Below are positions 33,911 to 43,949 of a stretch of 64,000 bases of DNA, piece by piece. The notes beneath the pieces were generated by a model that saw only the letters and a program-made list of their open reading frames with translations, made no database searches and had not been told where the DNA came from. Position numbers and translations under genes: made by a program. Every line of letters starts with the position of its first letter. Positions within the stretch are counted from its first letter, which is position 1. The stretch lies in contig NZ_QOHF01000024.1 in NCBI RefSeq assembly GCF_003319115.1, positions 1 through 64,000 of the forward strand, read 5' to 3'. This DNA is from Geodermatophilus sp. TF02-6. GTDB lineage: Bacteria > Actinomycetota > Actinomycetes > Mycobacteriales > Geodermatophilaceae.

Positions 33911-33955
33911 GGAGCGGGTGACGGGAATCGAACCCGCATGGCCAGCTTGGAAGGC
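33911..33955 (-). repeat. Left attachment site (partial tRNA-Gly copy)
   Basis: These 45 bp are identical to 43830-43874, the 3' half of the intact tRNA-Gly gene (acceptor 3' strand, T-arm and anticodon 3' side). The copy stops inside the anticodon region, so it is a displaced tRNA fragment left by site-specific integration. The integrase gene ends 98 bp away. Confidence 0.9.
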
Positions 33956-34052
33956 GGGACGCCTTGGGACTGTATGCGCTGCTCAGCGGCACATTCAGGT
34001 GGCTGGACAGGCCCGCATGACCACTATGTGACCAATCGCCTGCAGGTGGGCG

Positions 34053-35186
34053 CTACGTCGGCCGACCGTCCGTGTCGTCGTCCGGCGCCTCGGTGAGCGC
34101 GTCGAGCATGGCATCGAGGGCACGGGCGATGTCGGCGTCGCGGTCGTCCGCGGCGTGCTGGTAGAGCAGGGCGGCGGCGGGGGAGGAGTGGCCGAGCCGG
34201 CGCATGAGCTCCTTCGTGGTCGCGCCGGTGGCCGCGGCCAGGGTGGCGCCGGTGTGGCGCAGCTCGTGCGGTCGGACCGCCGGCAGGCCGATGGCGTTCG
34301 CGGCTCGGCGGAAGGTCGAGTTCCAGTTGCTACGGGCGAGGTATCCGCCGGAACTGGTGGAGAACAGGAGGGACTCCGGAGGAGCGGAGACGTGCTTCTC
34401 CAGGTGATCCTCCAGTACGGCTGCGATCCCGGCGGGGAGGGGCACCGTTCGGTGCCCGGCGTCGGTCTTGGTCTCGCCCACCACCCACCGGCCGCCGACG
34501 CGCCGGACCGAACGTTCGACGCGCAGCCGGCCACCGGCCAGGACGTCGGACCGTCGCAGGGCGGTGGCCTCACCGAACCGGAGTCCGCCGAAGGCCAGGA
34601 CGAGCACGAGCGCGCGGTAGCGCTCGGTTCTCCTGTCTTGCCCCAGTCGTTCTGCCAGCTGCAGGACCTCGGCCGCGGTGAGGGCACGAGAGGGCAGCGA
34701 GGCGTTGGGCGTGCCGGCACCGCGCAGTCGGCACGGGTTGGACGCGATGGCTTCGTCGGCGACTGCCACGTTGAGTACAGCGCGCAGCAGTCGGTAGGAC
34801 TGCGCCAGCGACGTCGGGCCGGTCGTTCGGCCGGCCCTCGCATGCCAGGCGCGGATGGCGGCCGGGGTCACTTCGTCGACGGGGACATCACTCCATGGCT
34901 CGGCGAGATGGTGACGCCACAGGCCCGCGTAGAGAACCCGGGTGCCCTCCCGCAGGTCACTGCGGACGAGGTAGTCCTCGGCGTACTCGCCAACGGTGCG
35001 GTGGACGGCGTTCGGAGCTCGCCAGCTCTTGCGCAGGAGGTCAGCCTGCTGGCTCGCCAGCCAGGCCCACGCGTCGGCCTTGGCGTTGAAGACCTTGGCG
35101 TGACGGCGGCCATCGGGGGCGAGATACCGGGCGCGATAGCGGCCGCTCGGGAGCCGGTCAACCGACCCGAACGTCCGCTTGGCCAT
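34053..35186 (-). CDS. int: Tyrosine-type site-specific integrase
   Basis: The 377-residue phage-like integrase has an N-terminal AP2-like arm-binding domain (RYRARYLAPDGRRHAKVF) and a SAM-like core-binding domain (about 60-150). The catalytic domain has the first Arg in FGGLRFGEATAL, the HELRHTGATLAA box (His-x-x-Arg), the GHSSPAAALLYQH box and its Tyr nucleophile. All catalytic residues are present. It faces the left attachment site, the usual arrangement for tRNA-targeting elements, and should catalyse integration and excision of the 33911-43874 island. Confidence 0.95.
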   Translation of the reverse strand: MAKRTFGSVDRLPSGRYRARYLAPDGRRHAKVFNAKADAWAWLASQQADLLRKSWRAPNAVHRTVGEYAEDYLVRSDLREGTRVLYAGLWRHHLAEPWSDVPVDEVTPAAIRAWHARAGRTTGPTSLAQSYRLLRAVLNVAVADEAIASNPCRLRGAGTPNASLPSRALTAAEVLQLAERLGQDRRTERYRALVLVLAFGGLRFGEATALRRSDVLAGGRLRVERSVRRVGGRWVVGETKTDAGHRTVPLPAGIAAVLEDHLEKHVSAPPESLLFSTSSGGYLARSNWNSTFRRAANAIGLPAVRPHELRHTGATLAAATGATTKELMRRLGHSSPAAALLYQHAADDRDADIARALDAMLDALTEAPDDDTDGRPT

Positions 35187-35227: not shown

Positions 35228-35443
35228 TCACCGCTGACAGTGGACACGGGCCGCGTCCACAAAGGCCTCTAGCGTCGACCGCTCCAGGCGCACATACTTG
35301 CCGACTTTGACGAAGGCGATGCGGCGCTCGGTGATGAGTCGGCGGATGAAGCGCTGCCCGGTGCCCAGGTACCCGCCGGCCTGCGCGACGGTCAGCAGCG
35401 GACCCCGGTCGCGATCCTGACCTCGGGCCGGTCGTGTCGTCAT
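35228..35443 (-). CDS. Excisionase-like small HTH protein
   Basis: The 71-residue protein has a MerR/HTH_17-type DNA-binding helix pair (LLTVAQAGGYLGTGQRFIRR) and the wing KVGKYVRLERSTLEAFVD. This matches the excisionase or AlpA-like proteins that lie immediately upstream of integrases in actinobacterial elements. It is transcribed toward the integrase with a 41-bp gap. It probably directs excision and may regulate int. Confidence 0.85.
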   Translation of the reverse strand: MTTRPARGQDRDRGPLLTVAQAGGYLGTGQRFIRRLITERRIAFVKVGKYVRLERSTLEAFVDAARVHCQR

Positions 35444-35537: not shown

Positions 35538-35789
35538 ATGAGCGCGGATGCGGGCTTTGAGGTCGTGGTGGGTGCCGACGGCGGCATCGCACCGGAGGAG
35601 CTGGCGCGTCACGGTGTCCGGCCGGGCGCGCACCTGCGCATCGTGGCCGAGGTCGACCGCCCCCCGATCCGACCGGCCTATGGCGCGCTCCGGGGGCAGC
35701 TCCCTGAGGTGTCCTGGGAGGACTTCGAGGCGGCTAGCCGCCTGGCCGTCGAGGACGTCGAGTCTGGCCCCACATTCCCCGACCGGTGA
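35538..35789 (+). CDS. Antitoxin, AbrB-like (VapB type)
   Basis: The 83-residue protein has an N-terminal swapped-hairpin-like segment (FEVVVGADGGIAPEELARHG, VRPGAHLRIVAEV). The acidic C-terminal part (VSWEDFEAASRLAVEDVESG) is suited to wrap a toxin. Its stop codon overlaps the GTG of the PIN-domain gene, the standard antitoxin-first order of vapBC operons. It should neutralise the toxin and repress the operon. Confidence 0.75.
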   Translation: MSADAGFEVVVGADGGIAPEELARHGVRPGAHLRIVAEVDRPPIRPAYGALRGQLPEVSWEDFEAASRLAVEDVESGPTFPDR

Positions 35790-36199
35790 GGGTCGTCGCT
35801 GACACGCATGCCCTCGTCTGGTTCCTCGAGGCCGATCAGCGCCTGGGCGTTCGGGCTCGAGAGGTGCTCCAGCACTCGCAGCAGGACCCCGACGGCGGCA
35901 TCGTCGTCTCGGTGGCCAGCCGCCTCGACCTGCACTACCTCCAGCGGGCCGGTCGGTTCAGCCCGGCCGACGTCCAACGCTGGTGGGCGGTCACGGAGGA
36001 CCCGAGCTGGAACATCAGCTCGGCCGCCATCACGGGCGCCATCGTCGCCTACTTCGACTCGGCGGAGCTGGCCGCGCTCCGGGATCCGTGGGACCGGCTG
36101 ATCACGGCCACGGCAATCGACCTTGGAGTTCAGCTGGTCAGCAAGGACCGCGCCATCACCGCGGTCGCGGAGACCGGTGCCGTCGAAGTCATCTGGTGA
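35786..36199 (+). CDS. PIN-domain toxin (VapC-like ribonuclease)
   Basis: This 137-residue PIN domain has the first acidic residue in VVADTHALVWFLEAD and the late acidic pair in LRDPWDRLITATAIDLG and LVSKDRAI. The mid-domain acidic position (usually Glu in SxxSxxE) falls in VVSVASRLDLHYL, where Asp/Leu replace the normal Glu, so activity may be weakened. PIN toxins cleave tRNA or rRNA. The gene overlaps its antitoxin (GTGA). It stabilises the island if functional. Confidence 0.85.
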   Translation: MRVVADTHALVWFLEADQRLGVRAREVLQHSQQDPDGGIVVSVASRLDLHYLQRAGRFSPADVQRWWAVTEDPSWNISSAAITGAIVAYFDSAELAALRDPWDRLITATAIDLGVQLVSKDRAITAVAETGAVEVIW

Positions 36200-36997: not shown

Positions 36998-37278
36998 CGC
37001 ACGCGGGCACACGGAGAGCGGTGAAGAGGCGACCGCGGACGTCGACCGGACCCGCAGTGCGCGGTGGCCGGTTCGGCTCCGACGACGGTCGAGGTCTCGC
37101 GCAGGTCGACGTCCGGCGACGGTCGAGGTCTCGCGCAGGTCGACGTCCGGCGATCGCGACCGCTGCAGGCGGCCGGGCACTCCGCCAGCAGCAGCCAGTC
37201 CCTGCCGCGCATGGAACGCGCGTTCACCCCAGTGAACGGGGCGTGTCACGGGCACAGAGCCCGAGAGCGCATCGCACC
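36998..37278. other. Non-coding stretch with a perfect 34-bp tandem duplication
   Basis: A 34-bp unit beginning CGACGGTCGAGGTCTCGCGC occurs twice without mismatch at 37083-37116 and 37117-37150. No convincing gene is present. The spacer follows the second TA pair and precedes a possible small zinc-binding protein. Confidence 0.6.
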
Positions 37279-37476
37279 ATGCCCTACATGGAGACGATGT
37301 GGAAGTGCAGCGACGTGGACTGTGACGGCCAGGCCGTCACCGGCTGGTCCGTTCCGGACCCGAGGCTGGTGTGCGCCGAGCACCGTGACCAGCTCGCGGA
37401 CCGCCGCGCCGTGGCGATTCCCACCGGCAACGGCGGCATGACCGTTCAGCTGCTGACGCAGTACCGGCGACCCTGA
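37279..37476 (+). CDS. Possible small zinc-binding protein
   Basis: A 65-codon frame from ATG 37279 encodes MWKCSDVDCDGQAVTGWSVP, then LVCAEHRDQL. The Cys-x4-Cys ... Cys-x-x-His pattern could bind one zinc ion. The remainder is short and polar and ends QLLTQYRRP. There is no family match I can name. Island location and the metal pattern argue for a real gene, but start and coding status are uncertain. 37477-37701 shows nothing further. Confidence 0.45.
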   Translation: MPYMETMWKCSDVDCDGQAVTGWSVPDPRLVCAEHRDQLADRRAVAIPTGNGGMTVQLLTQYRRP

Positions 37477-37701: not shown

Positions 37702-37854
37702 GTGCTGGAAGACGACGTCGCTGCGCTACTGGCCAATGTGGACACACGCCTGGGGAGCGACTGGGTGGAGTGGCCCGGCGGCCGCCCGGGGGAGGCGGAG
37801 GTCGCGCTGGTCGACGCCGTCATGTCCATCCGGGCGCGGTACGGCCGGCCGGGC
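37702..37854 (+). pseudogene. N-terminal fragment of an unidentified gene
   Basis: From GTG 37702 the frame reads LEDDVAALLANVDTRLGSDW, then VEWPGGRPGEAEVALVDAVM and SIRARYG. It looks like a normal protein start with a conserved-looking AEVALVDAV-SIRARYG block. At about 37855 it runs directly into the antisense of a helicase fragment, so the remainder is lost. The family is not recognised. Confidence 0.45.
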
Positions 37855-38145
37855 GGCCAGGAAGGTGCCCACGTACAGCCCGCCGAGCTGGTCGAGCGCC
37901 TGCGGTCCGAGTCGCTCTGCCACCCGCGCGCTGATGCGCTCCTTCAGCGACGCCGCGGCGCGCTCGGTGAAGGTGAAGGTGAAGGCGACGATGCTGCTCG
38001 CCAGTGCTCCCTCCGCCAGGAGGGCGGCCACCCGCTGCGAGACGACCTCGGTCTTGCCCGATCCGGCGCTCGCGATGATCTGGACGTGCGAGCCGCGGTG
38101 CTGAGCCGCCGCGAGTGCCTGGCCCTGGAGAACGGGCACCGCCAT
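37855..38145 (-). pseudogene. N-terminal fragment of a UvrD-like helicase
   Basis: From ATG 38145 the minus strand encodes VQIIASAGSGKTEVVSQRVA (Walker A of an SF1 helicase). AFTFTFTERAAASLKERISA (motif Ia, with a duplicated Thr-Phe) and LDQLGGLYVGTF follow, and similarity then ends at the junction near 37855. UvrD-like helicases are frequent in defence islands. Only about 95 of at least 600 residues remain, so it is inactive. Confidence 0.75.
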
Positions 38146-38348: not shown

Positions 38349-38885
38349 ATGAGCGGCATCGCGGTGGTGGACCAGCCCGACGCGGACCGGGTGGTCGTGT
38401 GGCACGTCAGCGTGGGGGACGGCCTGGAGTCGACGATGGCCGGCGCCTGGGTGCTGCCGGCCGACGACGAGTGGATCGAACAGCTTCTCATCGGTCGGCT
38501 GCTGGTGACGACGGACGCGGCGGCCGGCCGGTTCGGCGTGGGGGCCGATGCGAGAGCGCTCGCCGCAGCCGTGCAGGGCGAGGTCGATGCGCTCGACCGG
38601 GCCTTCACTGCACACCTGGCGACGCTGCCGTCGTCCCGCCGCCAGCTCGTCCGGCCCCGCTGGCCTCGGGTCCCCGGGGAGGCCACGCCGACGACCGCGG
38701 GGGACCCGGTGGCGTCCGGAGCGCTGACACTCGCCCGCTGGCTGTCCGATCTCCTCGTCGCCTGGGGCAAGGTCGAGGGCCTGCGTCTGGCGCGGCCGTT
38801 CCTGGAGGCGCACGGAGGAGCGGCGGCGCGAACGTATCCGCCCGGCTGGCCGGGCAGCGTCGAGACGACGGGTGCGGCGGCATGA
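38349..38885 (+). CDS. Unknown protein, first gene of the nuclease-ATPase cassette
   Basis: The 178-residue protein begins VVDQPDADRVVVWHVSVGDG with AGAWVLPADDEWIEQLLIGR, a beta-rich start. A helical middle (LAAAVQGEVDALDRAFTAHL) and an amphipathic stretch (ALTLARWLSDLLVAWGKVEG) follow, and it closes with TYPPGWPGSVE. No motif indicates an enzyme. Its stop codon overlaps the ATG of the exonuclease gene (ATGA), so the two products are made together and may interact. The 203 bp upstream should contain the cassette promoter. Confidence 0.75.
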   Translation: MSGIAVVDQPDADRVVVWHVSVGDGLESTMAGAWVLPADDEWIEQLLIGRLLVTTDAAAGRFGVGADARALAAAVQGEVDALDRAFTAHLATLPSSRRQLVRPRWPRVPGEATPTTAGDPVASGALTLARWLSDLLVAWGKVEGLRLARPFLEAHGGAAARTYPPGWPGSVETTGAAA

Positions 38886-40168
38886 GCGTCGCCGTCGTCG
38901 ACCTGGAAACCACCGGGGTGTACCCAAGCGTCGACCGCGTCGTGGAGGTCGGCGTCGTCCTGCTTGACGACGCCGGCGCCGTGGAGGACGAGTTCTGCAC
39001 CGTGGTCGACCCGGGCCGCGACGTCGGGGCGACGTCGATCCACGGCCTCCGTGCCTCGGACGTCGTCGGCGCTCCCACCTTCGCCGAGGTGGCCCCGTAC
39101 CTGGCCGCGCTGCTGGCCGGCCGGGTGGTCGCCGCGCACAACGCGCTGTTCGACCTGCGCTTCCTCGCCCGCGAGTTCGGTCGAGCGGGGCTGCCGATCG
39201 GGTTGTCGCCGGCGTTGTGCACCATGCGGCTGGCCGGCTTCTTCGACCGGTCGATGCGCTCGTTGGCGTCCGTCTGCGAAGCGCTGTCCATCGCGCACGA
39301 CCGTGCACACGCGGCACTCGAGGACGCCCGCGCGACCGCGACGGCACTGTGCCGTCTGCGCGAGCTGCTCGGGGACGACGCGCTGACCGACGCCGCGCTC
39401 ACGGTCGACTTCGACCTCGACGGCGCCTATCGCGGATCGGGAGGCGTGTCCACGCGCGAGTGGGCGGTCCTGCTGGCCGAGGTGTCGGTGAGCCGGCGAC
39501 CGTACGTGGACCCCTGCCGCAGCGTGACCCGATCACGAGCGGCGGCCGCCCGGCTGGAACGCGACAGCTACCTGCCCAACCTGGTGTCGGCACTCCCCGA
39601 CCTGGCCGCCGCCCCGCCGACGATGGCGCCGTACCTGGCGGCGCTCGACCAGGTGCTCGAGGACCGGCTGGTCAGCGTCAGCGAGGCCGACCAGCTGATC
39701 GCGCTGGCCGGGGAGCTCGGGTGCGCGCCGGGTCACGTGCAGGCTGCGCACCGGCTCTATCTCGAGGCGTTGGCGACCGTCGCTCTTGCCGACGACATTG
39801 TGACGGAGGCGGAGCGTCAGGATCTCGACCGGGTCGCCGTCCTGCTGGGCATGCGGCCCGACGACGTCGACACCGCACTGACCATGGTCCGGTCCGGCGC
39901 ACGGGTGTCGCTCCCGCGCGGCGCGCGAGGCCTGTCGCCCGGCGACACGATCGTCTTCACCGGCGAGATGGCGCGCCCCCGGTCAGCGTTCGTGGAAGCC
40001 GCCCGCGCCGCCGGCCTCGAGCCGATGAACGCGGTCTCGGGCAGGACCGATGTGCTCGTGTGTGCCGACCCGGAGTCGCAGTCGGGCAAGGCACGCAAGG
40101 CCCGCGCCCTCGGCGTGCGGGTGATCGGTGAGGTGGCGTTCTGGGAGTCGGTCGCCCGCGTGGGCTGA
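38882..40168 (+). CDS. DnaQ-like 3'-5' exonuclease with TerB-like and BRCT domains
   Basis: The 428-residue, three-part protein starts with a DEDDh exonuclease at residues 1-165: DLETTGVYPSVDRVVEVGVV (motif I), HNALFDLRFLAREF (motif II) and the motif III region HDRAHAALEDARATA with His and Asp. A helical TerB-like middle domain spans about 235-335 (ALATVALADDIVTEAERQDL). A C-terminal BRCT domain (GDTIVFTGEMARPRSAFVEA, GRTDVLVCADP, SGKARKARALGVRVIGE) spans about 345-428. BRCT domains bind DNA ends or phosphoproteins. All catalytic acids appear intact. It is followed after 21 bp by the ATPase gene. Confidence 0.92.
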   Translation: MSVAVVDLETTGVYPSVDRVVEVGVVLLDDAGAVEDEFCTVVDPGRDVGATSIHGLRASDVVGAPTFAEVAPYLAALLAGRVVAAHNALFDLRFLAREFGRAGLPIGLSPALCTMRLAGFFDRSMRSLASVCEALSIAHDRAHAALEDARATATALCRLRELLGDDALTDAALTVDFDLDGAYRGSGGVSTREWAVLLAEVSVSRRPYVDPCRSVTRSRAAAARLERDSYLPNLVSALPDLAAAPPTMAPYLAALDQVLEDRLVSVSEADQLIALAGELGCAPGHVQAAHRLYLEALATVALADDIVTEAERQDLDRVAVLLGMRPDDVDTALTMVRSGARVSLPRGARGLSPGDTIVFTGEMARPRSAFVEAARAAGLEPMNAVSGRTDVLVCADPESQSGKARKARALGVRVIGEVAFWESVARVG

Positions 40169-40189
40169 TCACGAAGGGGAGGTTGTTGG

Positions 40190-42658
40190 GTGTCCACGAG
40201 CGCGGGGGACGACGGCCTGCACGAGCGGCTCTCCCAACGGGTGGACCGGTCCGCGCTGTCCGAGGCGGCCAAGCTCGTGGTCCTCAGCGCGTTTTGGGGG
40301 AATGACGAGTTCGAGGCGGCGCTCGACGGGGCGGTCCACGGGAAGGTCGCCGCGGTGCCCACGGTGGAGCCGGCCGACGTTCCGCGGACCTACCTGACGG
40401 CGGTCACGGTCGCCGGCTTCCGGGGGATCGGACCGCAGACGACGCTGGACTTGCAGCCCGGGCCGGGCCTCACCCTCGTCGTTGGCCGCAACGGATCGGG
40501 CAAGTCGAGCTTCGCTGAGGCTGCCGAGATCGCGCTGATCGGCACCAACGCGCGCTGGCAGGACCGCACGTCGGTGTGGCGGGAGGGATGGCGCAACCTC
40601 CACCGCGGCGACGCGCAGCCCTCGGTGCGGGTCGACCTGCACATCGACGGCGAGCCGGGCATCACGCGGGTGGCCCGCGAGTGGGAGGGCGAGGACGTCG
40701 ACGAATCACGGGTCTGGGCGCAGCGGCAGGGGGCGCGACGGGAGTACGGCGAACTGGGCTGGGGCGACGCGCTGACGGCCTACCGGCCGTTCCTCTCCTA
40801 CTCCGAGCTGGGGTCCGTGCTCGGCAAGCCGTCGGACCTCCACGACGCGCTGTTCCGCATCCTCGGCCTGCAGAAGGTGGCCGACGCCCAGGGGCGGCTG
40901 CACCGGGCCTTGACCGACCTGGAGAACCGGCGCAAGGAGTGCGCGACCGAAGGCAAGGAGTTGTTGGCCGCCCTGCGCGCCGCCGCCGACGACCGCGCCG
41001 CGTGAGCCGCCGAGGCGCTCGGTGGGAAGGTACCGGACTTCGACGCCGTCGCCGACGTGATCCGGGTTGACTGGGCTCCGGACGGTGATCTGGCAGTGCT
41101 GAGGGCGTGGGCCGGCATCACGCCCCCGAATCCTGGGGCAGCACACCGCGCGGCCGAGGCGCTCGACGCCGCTGCCGGTGCCGTGCAAGGGCTGACCGGC
41201 GGCGACAGCGACCAGACGCGCCGCCTGGTGTCGCTGCTCGAGCAGGCGATGGCCCACGCCGACCATGCCGAGGGCGCTGACTGCCCGGTGTGCGGCGCAC
41301 AGGGGCGGATCGATGCCGCGTGGCGCGTGGCCACAGAGGAGCAGCTGAACCGGCTGCGCCAGGCAGCCGAAGCCGCCGATCGCGCCCACGCCGCACTCCG
41401 CAGCGCTCGCTCCGCCGTCCAGAACGTCGCCCTGCCCCCGCCCCCAGCGCTGCATCAGGCACCCCCGCCCGGCGTCGATGCGGCTCAACTGCAGGCGATC
41501 TGGTCCGCCTGGACGGCGGCCGTCCAGGCCGACGATCCGGCGACCGCGGTCGCCGCCCTCCGAACCGACACCGTCCCGCTCGCGGAGCTGGTCAGCGCAG
41601 CGTCCGAGGCGGCCGGCAAGGAACTGCGGCGCCGAGAGGACGCCTGGCAGCCCCTGGCCGAGCGGTTGAGCGCACACCTGCCTCGGGCCCGCGCGGTGGT
41701 CGAGCAGGCGCAGGTGCACGCCGACGTCAAGGCCGCCCGCGACTGGCTGAAGGGCCAGGCGGACGGTCTCCGGGACGAGGGCCTGCGGCCGATCGCCGAC
41801 CATGCCGCTGAGGTCTGGCGGCAGCTGCGCCAGGAGAGCAACGTCGACCTGGGGCCGGTGCGACTGGAGGGCGCGAAGACCCGGCGACGGGTGGCGCTCG
41901 ACGTCACCGTCGACGGCGACGCGGGGGCGGCGCTGGGCGTGATGAGCCAAGGCGAGCTGCACGCGCTCGGCTTCGCGCTCTTCCTGCCCCGGGCGATGCT
42001 CGACCAGAGCCCATTCTGCTTCGTCATGATCGACGACCCGGTGCAGGCCATGGACCCGTCGAAGGTCGACGGCCTCGCTCGCGTGCTGGCCGGCACCGCG
42101 GTCACCCACCAGGTCGTCGTCTTCACCCACGACGACCGGCTCTCCGACGCCGTCCGCAGGCTCCAGCTTCCGGCGACCATCTGGGAGGTCGTGCGCCGGG
42201 AACGCAGCGTCGTCGAGTTGCGGCGATCCGACCATCCCGTGACGCGCTACCCCGACGACGCCCGGGCGGTCGCCCGGAGCCAGAGCCTCACCGACGCGGC
42301 AAAGAGCCGGGTGGTCGCCGGCTTCTGCCGGAGCGCGCTGGAGGCCGCCTGCCACGACGTCGTGCGGAGGCGGCGTATCGGCCGAGGCGACCGTCACGCC
42401 GACGTCGAGGCGGCGCTGAACCAACCGACCACGCTGACGGCCACCACGGCGCTGGCACTGTTCGACGACCCGGGCAGAGGAGACCAGGTGCTCCCGCACT
42501 ACAACAAGCGCCTGGGCCGGTGGGCGGGGGACGTGCACCAGGCGTGCAACAAGGGCGTGCACGGCGGAGCTGCGTTCGACGCGATAGATCTGGTCGAGAA
42601 GGCGCAGAAGGTGGCCGACTTCCTCCGAGCCCTCGGCCCGGCCGCGGCAGTCCCGTGA
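40190..42658 (+). pseudogene. Rad50/SMC-like ATPase interrupted by an in-frame TGA at 41003
   Basis: One reading frame spans 823 codons except for TGA at 41003-41005; both sides look like native protein (LRAAADDRAA then AAEALGGKVPDFDAVADV). The first part (271 residues) carries Walker A VVGRNGSGKSSFAEAAEIAL. The second carries a CxxC zinc hook (DCPVCGAQG), coiled coil, signature MSQGELHALGFAL, Walker B FVMIDDPVQAMDP, H-loop VVFTHDD, and a helical C-terminus (FCRSALEAACHDVV). Neither half has a full ATPase site. A CGA-to-TGA change would explain the stop. Alternatives are readthrough, or two chains that assemble (a GTG at 41057 could restart). Confidence 0.8.
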
Positions 42659-43056
42659 CGGAGTCCGAGGAGCTTCTCGCCCAGGCCGACCAGCTTCTCC
42701 GCCACGGGAGCTCGGACGCCGGTGGCTGGTGGCCGCGGACCGCTGCCTTCCTCATCCGTGCCGCTCTCGAACTGGAACTCCGAGCCTTCTGGGACCGCGC
42801 CGAGCCGGGCACGGAAGGGGCGCCGATGCGGGCGCAGCTGCTCGTGCTTGCGACGCGGACACCGCCGGGGGCCGGGACCGCGCGGGACGTCGCTGCCGCC
42901 TGGCACGCGCTGAGCAGGGCCTGCCACCACCACCCCTACGAGCTGGCGCCGACTGCTGCGGAGCTTCGGGCCTGGCATGCGGACGTGGCCGGGCTGAGTT
43001 CCGCACTGCGCGTCCGCAACACCGCTGAGTACGTGTACGGAACAGCCGGGAGCTGA
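42655..43056 (+). CDS. Small helical protein coupled to the ATPase gene
   Basis: The 133-residue, mostly helical protein has ESEELLAQADQLLRHGSSDA, FLIRAALELELRAFWDRAEP, and then AARDVAAAW-like and LSRACHHHPYELAPTAAELR segments. The pattern of two long helices with a conserved aromatic/Arg region could be HEPN-like, but no clear R-x4-6-H catalytic motif is evident. The GTG overlaps the ATPase stop codon (GTGA), so the protein probably works with the ATPase, possibly as adaptor or effector. Family not recognised. Confidence 0.75.
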   Translation: MTESEELLAQADQLLRHGSSDAGGWWPRTAAFLIRAALELELRAFWDRAEPGTEGAPMRAQLLVLATRTPPGAGTARDVAAAWHALSRACHHHPYELAPTAAELRAWHADVAGLSSALRVRNTAEYVYGTAGS

Positions 43057-43058
43057 CG

Positions 43059-43949
43059 ATGGCCAGATCGATCCGTGACTGGTTCGCTGACCGCGAGTCG
43101 GGGTCCCTGGACGACGCGATGGACGACGAGGTCGTCGAGCGGCAGGCTCCTTGGGATCTCGCGCCCTTCCGGAGCGCTCCGTCGCAAACCCCGCAGCGGA
43201 GCAGCGCCCCCTCCCGACGGGTCGGCTCTGGGGGGACCCAGAAACGGGCGCAGCCTCGAGGCCGGGTGCCGGGAAGGGTCCCCGCCGCGTCATCCGTCTC
43301 CCAGCCGGTCGCCTCCGCTCCCGTCGTGCCGCGCGCCCTACGTGAGCGAATCACGGTGGCCATCCGGCTCCACCCTGGCCTCGGCGCCCGACGAGTGGCG
43401 GCGGCCCTGCGCGCCGCGGGGACGGACGTGACCAAAGCCCAAGTCGCCCTGCTGCTGCGCGACCTCGCGCCGCCGACTGGCAGGGCTTCGACCGCACCTG
43501 CGGCCCGAGCGGCGCGGCGGCGCTGGGAGTGGAAGCCGCCGCCCGGCCTCGCTGACACCTCTGTGCGGCTCGTGCGGGGTGGCGATCAGCCATCTCGGCA
43601 TGTGCCGCTGCTCGTGAGGTGGTGGCCGACTCGCCAGAACGCTCTTGTCGGTGGCGGGCTGGCCTTGGAGCCGACCGGCTCCGGCTCACTGGGTCACTGG
43701 GTCACTTACTGTAAGCAGCGGCCAAACGCGGTGGTCGGGGGCCAACAGGGGTCAGCATCGTTAAGGCACGGAAGGAGGCGCACTCGTCGGCTGAGCTGCG
43801 AAAACTGGCGTCTGAGCTGGTCAGTACGTGGAGCGGGTGACGGGAATCGAACCCGCATGGCCAGCTTGGAAGGCTGGGGCTCTGCCATTGAGCTACACCC
43901 GCGAGACTCTGGCAAGAGGACCCGCGAGCAACGCGTCCCCTCACCGTGA
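43059..43949 (+). CDS. Winged-helix-like protein whose frame runs through the attachment site
   Basis: The frame starts 2 bp after the previous stop. Residues 1-90 are low-complexity and charged (SIRDWFADRESGSLDDAMDD). Residues 92-140 resemble a small winged helix (RERITVAIRLHPGLGARRVA, AALRAAGTDVTKAQVALLLR). After about residue 180 the frame has no stop and passes antisense through the right attachment site and the tRNA-Gly gene. The C-terminus is therefore probably not native: the gene may have lost its stop, or its product ends in tRNA-derived sequence. Confidence 0.5.
   Translation: MARSIRDWFADRESGSLDDAMDDEVVERQAPWDLAPFRSAPSQTPQRSSAPSRRVGSGGTQKRAQPRGRVPGRVPAASSVSQPVASAPVVPRALRERITVAIRLHPGLGARRVAAALRAAGTDVTKAQVALLLRDLAPPTGRASTAPAARAARRRWEWKPPPGLADTSVRLVRGGDQPSRHVPLLVRWWPTRQNALVGGGLALEPTGSGSLGHWVTYCKQRPNAVVGGQQGSASLRHGRRRTRRLSCENWRLSWSVRGAGDGNRTRMASLEGWGSAIELHPRDSGKRTREQRVPSP
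43829..43902 (-). tRNA. tRNA-Gly (anticodon TCC)
   Basis: The 74-nt minus-strand gene runs from GCGGGTG (43902) to CACCCGCTCCA with CCA encoded. The D-arm AGCTCAATGGCAGAGC, anticodon loop CTTCCAA (TCC, Gly) and T-arm GGGTTCGATTCCC all fold normally with a 7-bp acceptor stem. It is the integration target of the 33911-43874 island, and its 3' half comes from the element. Confidence 0.97.
43830..43874 (-). repeat. Right attachment site (within tRNA-Gly)
   Basis: These 45 bp are identical to 33911-33955 and cover the 3' half of tRNA-Gly up to the anticodon arm. Integration regenerated a complete tRNA at this end. Just inside the element, near 43685-43710, a tandem TCACTGGG repeat and GTCACTTACTGTAAGCAG may be integrase arm sites. 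Confidence 0.9.

Follow-up and report, generated by a model that had tools for sequence, protein, structure and literature searches.

In RloC, the C-terminal RNase is under the control of a Rad50-like region (PMC3710099), and a subset of the RloC-like proteins described is found in mobile neighbourhoods with restriction genes (PMC3710099; PMC2610378). Lamassu (LmuABC), as presented in PMC10586767, combines an SMC-like ATPase of small size, in many cases bearing a CPxCG-type hook, with a small partner protein and effectors of various kinds; it is proposed that the SMC-like sensor controls a separate effector, and the Walker B motif of LmuB carries a Glu-to-Gln change (PMC10586767). Here, a gene cassette encoding another zinc-hook ATPase of the Rad50/SMC type is described from Geodermatophilus sp. 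TF02-6, where it lies in the first 64,000 nucleotides of contig NZ_QOHF01000024.1 (this whole stretch is referred to as the window). An original prediction, made from the DNA letters alone, had put the cassette forward as a candidate undescribed defence system in which an exonuclease is paired with its own ATPase.

We consider it rather probable that the cassette is what decay has left of a mobile defence island, in which the ATPase would serve as a sensor of foreign DNA, the small protein g4 as its partner or effector and the exonuclease as a DNA trimmer. The gene content, the damage, the marks of mobility, the pairing of the ATPase with g4 and the defence-rich neighbourhoods were all read directly from the sequences. 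The cassette appears to consist of two modules, each also found without the other: module A, formed by g1 and an exonuclease of the PDC-S48 type, and module B, formed by the zinc-hook ATPase and g4. Its genes are as follows.

38349..38885, plus strand: g1, 178 amino acids (aa), weak match to DUF6218 (E 0.0011, below cut-off)
38882..40168, plus strand: g2, DEDDh 3'-5' exonuclease, 428 aa, with TerB-like and BRCT-like parts (PADLOC PDC-S48)
40190..41005, plus strand: N-terminal half of g3, Walker A lobe of a Rad50/SMC-like ATPase, ending at the in-frame TGA 41003-41005
41006..42658, plus strand: C-terminal half of g3 in the same frame, with the CPVC zinc-hook, signature, Walker B and a C-terminal extra domain
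42655..43056, plus strand: g4, small partner protein, 133 aa, conserved motif W..LS.a.HhH.YEL (profile match)
43059..43949, plus strand: g5 frame, first ~137 residues conserved, weak HTH match, probably frameshifted

The arrangement of g1, the exonuclease, the ATPase region, g4 and the g5 frame on the plus strand was confirmed at the predicted positions, the genes being joined by overlaps or tiny gaps: g1 overlaps the exonuclease gene by ATGA, 21 bases separate the latter from the ATPase, and the ATPase and g4 overlap by GTGA.

The Walker A, signature, Walker B and CPVC zinc-hook motifs are all present in the ATPase frame (40190-42658), but the gene is not intact and is split by the TGA. CPxC was invariant in 15 aligned relatives; in a wider alignment it was found in 38 of the 39 rows, the remaining row being the window half that does not include this part, and the Walker B of the family reads Asp-Asp-Pro in all 38 covering rows. 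Sequence comparison with PDB matched the ATPase to solved Rad50/SMC structures. Only generic or partial models matched it in Pfam, NCBIfam and PADLOC. The intact ATPase of the relative L033 matched 23 PADLOC families at 1e-5, with mad3 (78.6 bits) scoring above LmuB; at 1e-20, five of the 140 control proteins are matched by mad3 as well.

Forty regions were fetched around ATPase matches in genomes of the order, 38 of them around strong matches. In 34 of these 38 loci the gene immediately after the ATPase gave a g4 profile match, including one (L075) with both genes in pieces; decay of the pair is thus not unique to the window, since L075 comes from another genome. Three of the four ATPase loci without g4 (L067, L070 and L074) are also without the C-terminal domain of the ATPase, and the fourth (L076) is divergent. 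The joint absence of domain and g4 (Fisher p 0.0005) provides moderate evidence that g4 acts with this domain. No model matched g4 above cut-off in Pfam, NCBIfam or PADLOC, and literature searches on the ATPase or exonuclease architecture found no description of an ATPase-g4 pair. Judged by these model collections, the pair is the newer part of the cassette, with no specific model in any of the three. Two ideas on the pair were tried and dropped: a HEPN assignment for the C-terminal domain and g4, the motif being conserved in neither, and a common origin of the two, for which profile comparison gave a probability of 2 and a P of 0.009.

Strong ATPase matches (E 1e-20 or better) were found in at least 36 of the 200 order genomes, the window's own included, and matches at 1e-40 in at least 15 of 296 phylum genomes; the genome-search counts are lower bounds, with 3 to 8 candidates scored per genome. 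A plasmid search gave three ATPase matches and no exonuclease match at 1e-40. No ATPase match was found in a phage search, and among viral contigs, searched with the ATPase alignment, 16 loci showed partial ATPase matches only. On two Streptomyces plasmids (L143 and L144), a same-family ATPase and small downstream genes lie beside TPR and DUF6119 genes; L143, typed as non-mobilizable, also has an NB-ARC gene, and L144 was typed as conjugative. In L056:8367-17571, genes for a TerB_N/TerB_C protein, BrxC/D and a DEAD helicase/DEDDh exonuclease fusion are followed by the ATPase and g4, that is, a BREX-type gene set is joined to module B. A set of four genes (~270, 380, 500 and 450 aa, 32-47% identical, the ~450-aa member helicase-like) is shared near the ATPase-g4 pair by L104:9670-14592, L040:11252-18467 and L049; the L104 copies matched no PADLOC model at 1e-8.

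The exonuclease matched PADLOC PDC-S48 at 1.6e-129 (430.6 bits, residues 3-425 on positions 6-406 of the 411-position profile); two PDC-S48 profiles match it, one of them almost end to end, and its relative in L041 matched at 5.8e-160. The 'S' in PDC-S48 denotes a single-gene candidate, and one literature search by name found no publication naming PDC-S48. The only PADLOC models matching the exonuclease were PDC-S48 and DEDDh models, and none matched g1 or g4 even at E 1. The term 'undescribed' used in the original prediction is therefore half right: it can be kept for the ATPase and g4, which have no specific models, whereas for the exonuclease a match to a named system in a defence model set was found, one of the outcomes that the prediction had named as refuting it, although PDC-S48 itself is only a candidate. 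Pfam shows a clear DEDDh exonuclease domain (RNase_T 7.8e-20), whereas the TerB and BRCT domains also proposed for the protein were seen only under the Pfam cut-offs (5.7e-4 and 0.016), the BRCT part being backed by matches of the C-terminal part to the region of solved DNA ligases that contains BRCT (2.1e-6 and 1.4e-5). The active-site residues D7, E9, D91, H143 and D148 are kept, and at most two aligned rows depart from them at any covered position. A genome-contig scan gave six relatives of the exonuclease; the nearest named ones are from Blastococcus, Geodermatophilus and one metagenome-assembled genome labelled Streptosporangiaceae. In several relatives the exonuclease adjoins g1.

The cassette is part of an island of ~9.9 kb, bounded by 48-nucleotide (nt) repeats at 33911 and 43830 which lie 9919 bp apart and are 98% identical. 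These repeats, the truncated UvrD-type gene and the deletion junction listed below had not been part of the original prediction.

33911..33958: att-like direct repeat, left end of the integrated element, 48 nt, 98% identical to 43830-43877
34053..35186, minus strand: tyrosine recombinase (integrase), best NCBIfam tyrosine recombinase model 4.1e-17, below curated cut-off
35228..35443, minus strand: excisionase-like HTH_17 protein (1.4e-8, above Pfam cut-off)
35538..36199, plus strand: small open reading frame without match (35538-35789) and PIN-domain protein (35786-36199; PIN 3.1e-7, above cut-off)
37702..37853, plus strand: 5' remnant of a gene of 219 aa in Blastococcus relatives, homologous up to the deletion junction (DNA matches L101:13668-13902 and L103:7677-7862)
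37726..38145, minus strand: truncated UvrD-type helicase remnant, first ~119 residues homologous (Pfam and profile match versus relatives)
37854..37859: deletion junction relative to Blastococcus sp. MG754426, left side matching L101 to 13902 and right side L033 from 6980
43830..43877: att-like direct repeat, right end, within tRNA-Gly(tcc) (repeat search and ARAGORN)
43829..43902, minus strand: tRNA-Gly (tcc), integration site (ARAGORN; Rfam tRNA 68.5 bits)

Repeats at a tRNA gene, an integrase and an excisionase-like gene are thus combined in one integrative element. The integrase, the excisionase-like gene and the PIN-domain gene with its overlapping small reading frame all lie inside the repeats. 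The integrase island of the original prediction was in this way recovered, the integrase itself scoring under the NCBIfam cut-offs. For the toxin-antitoxin pairs also predicted, the PIN-domain gene and the small reading frame are present, which from their overlap possibly form a VapBC-like pair. When the tRNA-Gly region was searched for, matches were found in all 21 of 21 genomes, the window's own included, most of them to the tRNA end. In several genomes of the genus (e.g. G152:C12, G498:C8 and G500:C12), partial copies of the tRNA-Gly end share a contig with the full gene, which suggests that this tRNA gene is a repeatedly used integration hotspot. The island also contains a short tandem array of three 34-nt copies with 17-nt spacing (37078-37145); a tRNA-Gln called just beyond it, at 37197-37293, fell below the Rfam threshold and was not confirmed.

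Four relatives (L033, L034, L035 and L037) carry g1, the exonuclease, an intact ATPase of 821-822 aa and g4 in this order, together with a divergent UvrD-type gene, for which a PD-(D/E)XK nuclease domain was shown in L033. At 23.8 kb from its tRNA-Met gene, Blastococcus sp. MG754426 has a 44-bp copy of the end of that gene. Enclosed by the two are genes for a TIR protein (PDC-S35, Pfam TIR), the 219-aa protein, a protein partially matching PDC-S11, a ResIII-domain protein, a Type III methyltransferase, two small proteins and the UvrD-PDDEXK protein; then come g1, the exonuclease, the ATPase, g4, a TrwC relaxase, a small excisionase-like protein and an integrase-like protein. These last two were identified by eye and through a 38% match to the window integrase. 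The cassette of Geodermatophilus ruber stands beside relatives of the same Type III restriction-modification genes as in Blastococcus, with a DUF4011/MTES_1575 helicase-nuclease further downstream. A second g1-exonuclease-ATPase-g4 order was found in L041 (genome G188), whose ATPase is 45% and exonuclease ~41% identical.

Against these relatives, the window copy is damaged in three places and probably not a working system in this genome. The ATPase frame is interrupted by a single in-frame TGA (41003-41005), where four relatives are open with a sense codon. Upstream of g1, window 37617-37853 matches L101:13668-13902 and the sequence from 37860 onward matches L033 from 6980, the two junction points being ~10.9 kb apart on one Blastococcus sp. 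MG754426 contig. The deletion was assigned to the window because it interrupts two genes that are complete in Blastococcus. The missing ~10.9 kb includes most of the UvrD-type helicase-nuclease gene, which in four relatives matches a 906-position profile end to end and of which the window keeps ~119 residues. Finally, the conserved end of g5 is in a different frame from its start, so g5 is probably frameshifted; it was found in L033 and L035 and not in L034 or L037, and its description as a winged-helix-like protein was not confirmed, the only match being sub-threshold (HTH_21, E 0.02, Pfam). With the helicase lost and the ATPase split, the combined system is probably inactive here, although the exonuclease may still be working. 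The ratio of nonsynonymous to synonymous substitution rates (dN/dS) was 0.09-0.32 across the five gene parts compared, except for one g4 pair at 0.76, as expected under purifying selection. Since this selection is still visible, the gene losses look recent or may partly be sequence errors.

The association with defence genes was assessed on the two closest genes encoding 100 aa or more to either side, taken from our own gene calls and compared with PADLOC at 1e-20. For the ATPase, 131 of 134 proteins were used, from 35 loci, three being omitted for size; for the exonuclease, 82 of 84, from 21 loci. A single control set for both modules was drawn from remote parts of 20 ATPase-bearing genomes and comprised 140 proteins. 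Because PADLOC families overlap and the listings stop at the first 25, family totals are not gene counts, and with this restriction the ATPase neighbours matched 59 families, the exonuclease neighbours 81 and the control proteins four (mad3 in five proteins, two PDC-M37B models and DolB in one each). The 25 families listed for the ATPase neighbours include ZacB, ZacC, Hhe, a Type I methyltransferase and Type IV restriction models; among those listed for the exonuclease are DrmA, DrmD, HerA, Type I enzymes and NERD-helicase models. The contrast between neighbours and control is large. The defence association proposed originally was in this respect supported, by the enrichment around both modules against this one control set, by the mobile island and by the Type III and TIR neighbours in the relatives.

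Several points weigh against this interpretation, apart from the overlap of PADLOC families. The ATPase set held an exonuclease piece (L076:7196-7618) and a g1 relative (L041:6020-6691), and a few of its 59 families may come from module A itself; several exonuclease loci (L080-L083) are of one family and share their neighbours. The joint-loss evidence is only moderate because the C-terminal domain and g4 are adjacent, and a single deletion each time could have removed both. The HEPN-type Rx4-6H motif is conserved neither in the ATPase C-terminal domain, where the His is kept and no Arg is conserved at that spacing, nor in all g4 proteins; a PDB sequence search with g4 gave no match. The structure model of the ATPase is poor (mean predicted local distance difference test score, pLDDT, 48.8), with usable confidence in the central helices flanking the zinc-hook motif. 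The steps of sensing, signalling and effector action are carried over from other families.

The cassette could alternatively be one coupled machine acting on DNA ends, similar to RecBCD or SbcCD and built of five or six genes including the UvrD-type helicase-nuclease, g1, the exonuclease, the ATPase and g4, which we regard as unlikely. Its tight spacing and overlapping codons fit such a machine, as do the common gene order with the divergent UvrD-type gene in four relatives, the second such order in G188 and the DEAD-helicase/DEDDh fusion directly upstream of ATPase-g4 in L056; yet the four full-order relatives are at least 85% identical to the reference ATPase and so close to one event, and ~700 bases part the exonuclease and the ATPase in L041. 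Ten genomes hold both families by these searches, and in three of them (G000, G077 and G188) the two lie within ~10 kb. Chance placement this close is rare in genomes of 5-7 Mb by our own estimate, but it may be explained by shared islands as well as by joint function. The fetched ATPase loci weigh against coupling: the next gene upstream belongs to the exonuclease family (E 1e-15 or better) in two of the 38 (L041 and L056), such a gene lies elsewhere in the fetched stretch in three (L063, L065 and L076), and at this threshold none was found in the other 33. Conversely, exonuclease and g1 occur without the ATPase in seven loci (L036, L080, L081, L082, L085, L094 and L097). It is g4 that regularly accompanies the ATPase; the pairing with the exonuclease is weak, and one coupled system as first proposed is possible but weakly supported.

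Another explanation is that the split ATPase is functional in this genome, the TGA being an assembly error or read through, or the halves working as two chains. Motifs and purifying selection are kept in both halves, and an in-frame GTG follows the TGA at 41057, but the intact relatives have a sense codon at this site, the cassette is also damaged elsewhere, by the deletion and the likely frameshift in g5, and the dN/dS of the window halves (0.15-0.31) lies on the upper side of that among relatives (0.14-0.23). We hold a functional ATPase here to be quite unlikely and do not favour programmed readthrough of the TGA, which was considered too. Least credible to us, and very unlikely, is that these are chromosomal DNA-repair genes carried on a mobile element without an immune role. 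Rad50/SMC homology of the ATPase and DnaQ-like homology of the exonuclease agree with repair, relatives on two Streptomyces plasmids are annotated with double-strand break repair, and two exonuclease relatives (L091 and L092) lie, judged by eye, near housekeeping-like genes of the ribosomal-protein and ssb type, which counts against the defence interpretation as well. Repair genes would not, however, readily account for the patchy distribution, for the restriction, DISARM-type, BREX-type and TIR genes among the neighbours or for the repeat-bounded mobile elements at tRNA genes.

On the favoured interpretation, a decayed mobile defence island, the working form of the cassette may be pictured by analogy with RloC and Lamassu, from which sensing by the ATPase and action through g4 are proposed. 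The ATPase would dimerise via the zinc hook and recognise, on invading DNA, ends or structures resembling those of replication. Through the extra C-terminal domain, an ATP-dependent change in the head would then reach g4, which could be an effector stopping the infected cell, or a regulator. The exonuclease, to judge from its domain families, probably trims DNA ends recognised by the BRCT-like part: it would be led by this part to nicks or ends and trim the same DNA from its 3' ends. Its gene lies beside that of the UvrD-type helicase-nuclease in close relatives with an intact cassette.

More tentatively, and with considerable doubt, the ATPase-g4 pair might be an undescribed two-gene immune system of Actinomycetota, in which the C-terminal domain of a zinc-hook DNA sensor docks and controls g4 as a new small effector and interchangeable helicase/exonuclease modules (PDC-S48, DEAD-helicase/DEDDh, UvrD-PDDEXK) stand alongside on mobile elements. 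If the immune role is real, protection should require both the ATPase C-terminal domain and g4, and PDC-S48, so far only a candidate, would gain a biological setting with intact relatives at hand. The island in the window is decaying, and these relatives are the better material for study.

In comparison with known systems, the cassette differs from Rad50-Mre11 and SbcCD in that no Mre11-type phosphoesterase domain was found among its scanned proteins. The same holds for Wadjet, as no Jet model was among the 23 PADLOC families matched by the L033 ATPase (1e-5) or was found for g1, g2 and g4. Gabija is approached by the UvrD-type gene of L033, which matches GajB profiles over the helicase part; this gene, however, has a PD-(D/E)XK domain, the ATPase gave only short N-terminal GajA matches (27 bits at best), the combination of GajB with a GajA bearing a TOPRIM nuclease was not found, and in the window the UvrD-type gene is truncated. 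With BREX-type loci the ATPase-g4 pair is shared in L056, directly downstream of the helicase-DEDDh fusion that follows the BrxC/D and TerB_N/TerB_C genes, whereas the scanned proteins of the window cassette have no BrxC/D, PglZ or methyltransferase match. The Walker B Asp-Asp-Pro distinguishes the ATPase from LmuB of Lamassu, if the positions in the two proteins are rightly equated; the L033 ATPase has only partial LmuB matches (60.9 and 49.4 bits) below that of mad3 (78.6 bits), and no LmuA effector or LmuC partner model was found among g1, g2 and g4. PDC-S48 is matched by the window exonuclease, but here this gene sits with g1, the ATPase and g4, and PDC-S48 is itself only a candidate. Membership of RloC is not claimed because the RNase signature was sought and not found as a conserved feature: in contrast to RloC and the PrrC-type ABC-HEPN proteins, the ATPase has no conserved C-terminal Rx4-6H HEPN motif, and the separate g4 is its regular partner. 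Like RloC, nevertheless, it is a Rad50-like ATP-binding cassette (ABC) protein with a zinc-hook CxxC (CPVC), and if the interpretation is true, this ATPase and its small partner would join RloC, Lamassu and Wadjet among the Rad50/SMC-like immune proteins.

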